A stretch of DNA of 64,000 bases from Larus michahellis. Its lineage: Eukaryota; Chordata; Aves; Charadriiformes; Laridae. The notes beneath the pieces are model-generated. The model worked only from the letters and a program-made list of their open reading frames with translations, did no database searches and was not told the DNA's origin. Location: positions 4,965,001 to 5,029,000 of the forward strand of contig NC_133907.1 in assembly GCF_964199755.1 (NCBI RefSeq), read 5' to 3'. The translations under genes were made by a program, and so were the position numbers. The first letter of the stretch is position 1. The number at the start of each line of letters is the position of its first letter. Below are positions 29,993 through 32,900 of this stretch, piece by piece.

Positions 29993-32900
29993 CTAACCAA
30001 AAGGGACAAAAACAAGAGAGGGTTTTTCAGACACATTGCAAAATGTCCACACTAACTCAGCGCAGGCAAGGAACCGGTCTGATTTACGCCGATAGTGAAG
30101 GCCTTAGGAATGTGAGCGGGACCTGTCGCACTGCAGGGTACCAGCAGTGATGCTGGCGCTGCTGTGGCTTCAAGTGCTTTAGGATCCTGTTGAGTGTCAC
30201 ACACCAGCGCCACATTTGTTGCCTGGGAGCCAGCTCAGGGACCTGTCTGGAGCAAAGTGCAGGCGTGCGAGTGAGACCGAGCACACGTCTTCTCAGTTCC
30301 TTGCAGGGAACTCGGGAGCAGAGGGTTATTTTCCTGTGCTACCATCAAGCAATTCTCCCCAAGCTCTGGAAACCAAAGCAGCAGGCAACTAAAAGCACAA
30401 TTAGCAGCAAGTCTACGCAAAAATAAAAAAAATCATTTCTGCGTGAATGCCAGCTGTCCCACCTGAGCTCTGCTGCAGGGGGCAAAGGCTAGCTTATACC
30501 TTATGTTTTACTAGTATAACTGCAAGTGGGGAGTAAATCACACCCCTTAACGCTGTGCGACTACAGCCTTGCTAACAGCAGTCACACCAGTGTCACAGCC
30601 TTGCGGCACTCGGGCACTTTTTAGGCTAAAATTTGCGTGTTTAAGCGTTGCGTTTGCGCTAGGGGAGCTCTGCCACTTCATACAGCTTTCGCTAAGTGCC
30701 AACAAGTCTTTAAAGAGCAGAAAATTGGAGGCCCAAACAGCCAACGTGTAAGTGCAATCTCAGCCACGCTTATGAATATAAATGCTGCCTCGCTCCTTAG
30801 CGCTGCTGCTCAGTATTATGCCCCCCAACAGCTTCCTTCCTTCACCAGACGTCTCATTGAGCTCTTCAAGCTCAGAGCGTTTCACGTCCAATTCATCGCA
30901 TCCTGGTTTTACTCCACAACCCCCCTGCCGAGGCAAATCACTCTCTTGCACATAAACTAGACACGTGGAGAAATGCAATAGCATCGTATCGGCTAACGGG
31001 GCCGGGTCTGCCGCCGGTGGTCCCCAGGGCATCCTGGCATCGCATTGCGATGCCAGGATGCCCTGGGGACCACCGGCGGCAGACCCGGCCCCGTTAGCCG
31101 ATGCCAGGATGCAAATCCTGCTGGCAAATCCCACATCACCTGCACAGAGCACCCAGCTGACAGGCAGAGCCTGCACACACAACCAGGGCGTCGTTTTGCT
31201 CTAGGAACTGGGGTTTTTTTCCACCCTCAAGCACCATAAGGGAGAAGCTGGAGGACGCCACTCACCCCTGCCACAGTTAACAAGTCACAGAGACGAATCC
31301 AAGTGTTTTGAAAGCAGTTAAATAACTCCACCCATTTGACAAAGTTGGGTTTTGTTTTAGCAAAGCCCTAGAGAGCATCTGGGAAAGCAAACTTCCAGCA
31401 GCAGGTAAAGCCAATGACTACCACAGACACCAAGCCCAGCGCCTGTGCCTGCAATGGTCAGTGATCAGTGTGGGTGGGAATATTGGTTATTTGCACAAAC
31501 AGTCTGTATCCATGGCTACTGCTATGGCAATGAAAGTCTGCACAACAGAAAGATTTGGCTGCACCTCCCTGCCCTCAGCAGAAGACGAAGGTTTGGTCTG
31601 GGGGATGGGAGGGACCATCAACAGGCTGGAGACGTGGGGCACTGGGTGCATTTTGAGGCATCAAATGAGACACCCAAAGTGCTGGAGGGGGGCTCAGCAC
31701 GTGATCCCAAGCCAACTGGGAGCAGCCCAGGACAGCTTGGCTCTGGAGACCAAAACACCAACGAGGAAAAAAGCAGGTTCTCTGGTGCAAGCCGCCCTTT
31801 GGTGAGACTAGCATGACAGCATGGAAACGGGAGCAGAGACCTTTGCACAGCCCCAGCTCCCACTGCCGCTGCCACCTTGGCTTTGCTAAACCCCAGCGCA
31901 GCAGGGCACCTTTGCTTTCCTGCTCCCGTCAGCATCCATGTAGCCCCAACACGGGGAGTAGGAGGGTTTGGGGCTTCTCAGCCAGGAACTGCCCCACGAC
32001 GAGGAGCACGGCAGTGCCCCGTGCCCACGCACGGCCAGGAGCATCAAGCCAGGGCACACAGGTGGGAGGGTGAGAGCATTCACACGGCAGCGCTGCCCAA
32101 AGCCCCTTCCCACAAGGAATCAGCTCAAACACCGGCTCACCAGCAGCAAGGACCTGCTGGCTCCAACAAGCCGAGGTTTGTTTTTAGCATAACGAAGCCT
32201 CTGATTTAAAAATTGGCCCCTGGACGTCGGCAAGCGCAGGGAGGACGCCACTGACCCAGCAGTAGCTGCTAGCACCATGCACTTCACTTTGGGTGGAGCA
32301 CTGCTAGGAGACGCTTAAGCCAAGAGTAATATTTCCTCATTTTCTTTCTATAATCTGAAAGTGTTTTAGTTGTTAAATCATCTTCCTGCCTTCAAAACAA
32401 ACACTTTTAAACATAAAGAGCTGGCAAGCCGCTTCCTAAAGATGAGATGTTAGCAAACTGAAGTCAAGCAGCCCAGAGCTGAAGAGATGCAGACGACAGG
32501 CTGGACCTGTTCTCCGTCACGAAGGGAGCATCCCCGCACGCTCCCTGCCCAAACACGGGGTGGCACACGCTAACCTCTCCAAACCTGCAGCAGCCCTCCC
32601 ACCACCTATCCTGGGAGCTCATTAACACCTTGTTAATTTGCTTAGCATCGCAGGGAAAAAGAAATAATAATCTAGAGACAGCAGACCCAGCATCCCACTG
32701 CCGTGTGCAACCTCCGACTCCCTCTGCGCAAAGAGGCTGTGCCAGAGAGATGAGAACCAGCAGCACAAAGCCTGGGTGCTCGGACCGATGGTAACACGCG
32801 TGGGCGACGCCAGGGCAGCCTGCGAGCGCGGCTGAGCACCGGCAGCGAATTGCTGTCACCCGTGGGTGACAGTTAGGAAGCAACGCCCTACATGGGTTCA

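Follow-up and report, generated by a model that had tools for sequence, protein, structure and literature searches.

A 115-bp perfect palindrome in a kinase gene intron of Larus michahellis, a probable scar of a single replication template switch

The window analyzed here, a stretch of 64,000 bases, carries on its minus strand a kinase gene with an intron at 29993-35633. One kinase exon ends at 35634 (donor AAAG/gtaccc) and the next starts at 29992 (acceptor ggttag/GTGAG), and the two are joined in frame as SLK-G-ERILG. The Pfam Pkinase domain matches both exon pieces, with the upstream piece scoring slightly under the cut-off (31.3 versus 31.7 bits). We take this gene to be STK35, judging by the kinase sequence and the neighboring opioid-peptide precursor. 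A preliminary description of this DNA had placed the feature under study in an STK35 intron; the reading frame, splice sites and Pkinase matches establish the intron of a kinase gene, for which STK35 is the presumed name. A GC-rich minisatellite at 36756-36986 (TRF units of about 19-20, 38-39, 59 and 97 bp) lies approximately 0.7 kb upstream of the presumed start codon of the kinase at 36078. The plus-strand frame at 44421-45431 encodes an opioid precursor with a Pfam Opiods_neuropep match and is presumably prodynorphin-like; its first opioid core is YGGFM, and the first core in mammals is YGGFL. Other coding sequences of the window, both on the minus strand, are immunoglobulin V-set and C1-set stretches at 51099-52259, which we assume to be SIRP-like, and a frame at 4949-5884 with DUF5581 N-terminal and Fn3-like domains. 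A literature search on this locus, with queries formed on terms other than the gene name, found no paper.

Within the kinase intron lies a perfect palindrome of 115 bp. Its left arm (30988-31044) and right arm (31046-31102), both read on the plus strand, are exact reverse complements at all 57 of 57 pairs, and the inverted-repeat scan places a single T at 31045 as the one-base center. The arm has a GC content of 72% and six CpG dinucleotides, and the surrounding intron has a GC content of 57%. The palindrome is therefore as the preliminary description had it, with 57-bp GC-rich arms and a one-base center. Palindromes that are long, perfect, GC-rich and nearly without a spacer are unusual in vertebrate DNA. 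Including this one, the window contains four inverted repeats with perfect arms of at least 10 bases and a spacer of at most 20; the rest comprise one with 11-base arms around a spacer of 15 and two with 10-base arms around spacers of 3 and 17. In ten simulated windows of 64,000 bases (first-order Markov model, spacer 0-20) the longest arm was 10 in seven cases and 11 in three. Since simulated arms reach only 10-11 bp and the other arms in the window are no longer than that, the 57-bp palindrome is far beyond the chance level. We also sampled 224,000 bases of the same genome, comprising the window and 16 ten-kilobase stretches, eight of which are on the window's own contig. This sample holds eight perfect inverted repeats with arms of at least 10 and a spacer of at most 8, and the runner-up arm is 13 bp long.

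A search of the bird's own genome (1.405 Gb in 616 contigs), the counts of which are lower bounds, matched a 115-base query and a 701-base query to this place only, the palindrome query aligning with the locus both forward and as its own reverse complement. An arm 24-mer with up to three mismatches was found in at least four places, two of which are the palindrome itself and two of which are elsewhere, each with three mismatches. Other genomic copies of one arm, which the preliminary description had proposed to look for, were thus sought and, within these lower-bound counts, none was found beyond the locus. We rejected a dispersed repeat family on the basis of the single locus found and the two mismatched 24-mer matches elsewhere, both being lower-bound counts. 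A protein-coding palindrome was also rejected, as the minus-strand frame across it has no Pfam match.

Comparison of the palindrome with its flanks revealed a 14-bp direct repeat, CGATGCCAGGATGC, which is present on the plus strand at 31048-31061 and again at 31099-31112, where it spans the right edge of the palindrome. The two copies are offset by 51 bp, and the first starts three bases from the palindrome center. A word repeated across the right edge had been noted previously; the recurrence is real, but the repeat is 14 bp long, one base more than noted, and the 13-base word is additionally found inverted at 31029-31041. Among local 10-mers (20001-34000, outside the locus and its 60-base flanks), only 4 of 13,756 are present anywhere in the palindrome, and it is therefore unlikely that the flank continues the palindrome sequence by chance. 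Within the region 30500-31600, the observed/expected ratio of CpG is 0.81 for the arm itself; over the 488 bases that precede the arm it is 0.72, and over the 488 bases that follow the repeat it is 0.20. This drop from left to right is a soft hint that the left arm is the native one. The sequence CATCGCATCCTGG (30894-30906), which precedes the left arm by about 80 bases, has the 9-mer GCATCCTGG in common with the arm.

We consider it reasonably probable that the palindrome was left behind by a single template switch during replication (a quasipalindrome mutation), likely a recent one, at an existing hairpin. Removing 51 bp in the register of the direct repeat leaves a putative ancestor that has the left arm once and contains a hairpin of 33 bp (arms of 16 bp). 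The net insertion can be placed at 31052-31102 on the plus strand, which is one of several equivalent registers, and the remaining seed hairpin at 31029-31061 has a one-base spacer. As single-stranded DNA, this hairpin is predicted to fold stably, at -19.2 kcal/mol compared with a mean of -5.6 for shuffled sequences, with 15 base pairs closing a 3-base loop. From this one-copy ancestor a single four-point switch regenerates the present sequence exactly, with 85 equivalent solutions and a copied length of 37-57 bases. Because the palindrome and the direct repeat touching its edge both follow from a single switch in an ancestor shorter by 51 bp, one event explains the two; the position of the repeat and its 51-bp spacing are what the template-switch model requires. 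The preliminary description had suggested a template switch during replication, and this reconstruction fits that suggestion well. As in a short-range template switch, the sequence can be written, in one event, as an ancestral prefix, the reverse complement of a nearby segment and a suffix, and the same holds for ancestors of the mirror event discussed below. A further property is that of quasipalindrome mutation: the sequence resumes in the flank after CGAT, as on a return to the original template. The prior imperfect inverted repeat of such a mutation would be the 16-bp-arm hairpin of the putative ancestor.

The following series of steps would produce the locus. The ancestral intron would have carried the left arm, as the original copy, and the 33-bp hairpin, the right half of which was CGATGCCAGGATGC followed by AAATCC. 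During extension to the right, in the sense of the plus strand, the new 3' end would fold back onto the hairpin stem. The folded nascent strand would then copy 37-57 bases of its own upstream sequence, to about 30988, and detach. It could re-pair with the original template via CGAT, the first four bases of the second repeat copy and the putative return microhomology, upon which GCCAGGATGC, the right half of the hairpin, would be copied a second time. The outcome would be a 51-bp insertion that creates the 57-bp perfect palindrome, with 31062-31102 as new sequence, together with the 14-bp direct repeat. Which arm is original, in which direction synthesis ran, that the switch stayed within one strand and that the event is young are parts of this account that we infer.

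With regard to age, the palindrome may be young, since all 57 pairs, with 12 CpG among them, match perfectly. At substitution rates between 1.2 and 2.5e-9 per site per year, the absence of mismatches over 114 sites puts the upper age bound at about 10.5-22 million years, or at 3.6-7.6 million years with a tenfold higher mutation rate at CpG sites; re-homogenization of the arms would invalidate these bounds. The palindrome had been called possibly very recent, which agrees with the perfect pairing, the one observation behind it.

Short-range template switches in great apes offer the closest comparison (PMC7954356). As described there, intra-strand switching has the condition that point 2 precedes point 1; this is true of both orders found among our 85 solutions, namely 3-2-1-4 (25/85) and 3-2-4-1 (60/85). 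The order 3-2-1-4 is one of two majority patterns reported in great apes, and many events with point 4 before point 1 form a class of their own (PMC7954356). The palindrome resembles those events in the local reverse-complement copy made at one stroke, in the perfect inverted repeat left in the descendant, and in the order of its points. It differs in that the ape events were demonstrated by sister genomes and this one by reconstruction, and in copied length, which is 37-57 bases here versus a reported median of 12 and maximum of 128 (PMC7954356). The copied length is therefore within the great-ape range, in its long tail, and its being well above the median counts against a template switch at an existing hairpin. 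That reading also pays for one coincidence, because the native seed hairpin is itself unusually long-armed: its 16-bp arms exceed every other sampled (the next are 11 bp in the window and 13 bp in the 224,000 bases). The quasipalindrome mechanism involves two switches, out and back, according to work in yeast (PMC3820800). The locus is similar to the events of that model (Ripley's hairpin model, cited in PMC7954356; PMC3820800) in that an imperfect inverted repeat would seed the switch, followed by limited synthesis and a switch back; the events described in these sources perfect a near-perfect repeat, whereas here the copy extends 41 bases past the putative stem.

A mirror template switch is possible but rather doubtful. 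In that case the right arm would be original, with its own older 14-bp direct repeat, and an inverted copy would have been inserted to the left in the order 1-4-3-2 or 4-1-3-2. Mirror events rebuild the sequence exactly for all four ancestors tried (4/4), one of which is also shorter by 51 bp and likewise permits a 4-base slide, and 1-4-3-2 shares with 3-2-1-4 the status of majority pattern in great apes (PMC7954356). The left palindrome edge GCATCGTAT is also similar, as read by eye, to GCATCGCAT near the center. However, a mirror event leaves the edge-touching 14-bp repeat as a coincidence or a second event, its insertion length is free rather than fixed, and the longest remaining stem (spacer of at most 5) is 6 bp in the three of these four ancestors that were measured.

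It is quite improbable that the palindrome is an artefact, i.e. a library or assembly foldback, or an amplification error, built into the consensus. A 4-base overlap is too short for an assembler to join. Since the overlap at the return to the flank is just four bases and the window is free of N, an artificial origin, which the preliminary description had kept as an option, is unlikely. The window furthermore sits on a 17.7-Mb contig, and the own-genome search found one locus and no second allele (counts again being lower bounds). Artefacts of this general kind are on record: chimeric reads arise at natural inverted repeats and palindromes in short-read libraries (PMC10908179), long reads have a reported foldback artefact (PMC12870357), and whole-genome amplification has been reported to give artificial palindromes (PMC6218980). 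In the artefacts as PMC10908179 presents them, part of the read comes from the opposite strand and the account includes no return, whereas the insertion here rejoins the flank with its 4-base overlap.

A transcript of the intron was expected in the preliminary description to fold into a hairpin, and the predicted fold agrees: RNA of the intron strand at 30940-31150 has a folding energy of -170.1 kcal/mol, and shuffled versions average -84.7. Such a stem could be a maintained functional hairpin, either a small-RNA precursor or an RNA-editing substrate, in line with the maintenance and the Dicer or ADAR processing that the preliminary description had raised as possibilities. Selection or recurrent correction through template switching would then preserve its perfection, and mammalian microRNA loci that arise through template switching have been described (PMC8794818). 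We regard this as very improbable: Rfam gave no match at the gathering threshold across the whole window, the own-genome search found no other copy (lower bounds), and the anatomy of the palindrome is accounted for without selection. Equally improbable is a newborn intronic hairpin, still perfect, in which the template switch made a 57-bp double-stranded RNA stem that now undergoes editing or small-RNA processing; the locus would then be a proto-microRNA or hairpin-RNA locus of age zero. No evidence of function emerged, and the palindrome is most likely, we infer, a young and neutral scar, probably an unstable one.

The least credible explanation is a hairpin-shaped mobile element or foreign insert, which would suit a compact perfect inverted repeat with 72% GC in an intron of 57% but is opposed by the lack of a target-site duplication at the outer edges (read by eye) and of any other copy in the own genome (lower bounds; two further arm 24-mer matches, three mismatches each), so that neither target-site duplication nor dispersed copies, by which a palindromic transposable element is recognized, were seen. 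Foreign DNA was rejected because searches gave no convincing match: blastn of the region against phages, plasmids and E. coli returned nothing better than one plasmid match (E 0.3), and exact arm patterns found no 26-mer in GTDB and no 20-mer in IMG/VR. A scan for bacterial-type promoters and terminators found 0, which is irrelevant to a vertebrate.

The palindrome would be a clean, long, GC-rich example of known template-switch products. The locus appears to retain the duplicated word and the microhomology of the return along with the seed hairpin, so that every step of the fold-back would be on display in a single place. Should related species bear this out, the palindrome would clearly exemplify quasipalindrome extension far past the dozen or so bases that are usual, and it would be a candidate from which a new hairpin RNA could start. 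Template switching has been proposed as a source of perfect RNA stems and of some microRNA loci (PMC8794818); the likeness lies in one event making a perfect stem in transcribed DNA, there with RNA products, and here with a palindrome known from DNA sequence. Among long perfect inverted repeats, the longest human arm is given as 140 bp, and longer-armed eukaryotic repeats are reported to have disproportionate AT/TA content (PMC13155455). The palindrome is like them in being perfect with a near-zero spacer and differs from the AT-leaning longer-armed ones in its arm of 72% GC. The second longest palindrome in our own sample, in the sampled stretch L020 (5928-5955), is also GC-rich and has 13-bp perfect arms with a 2-base spacer.
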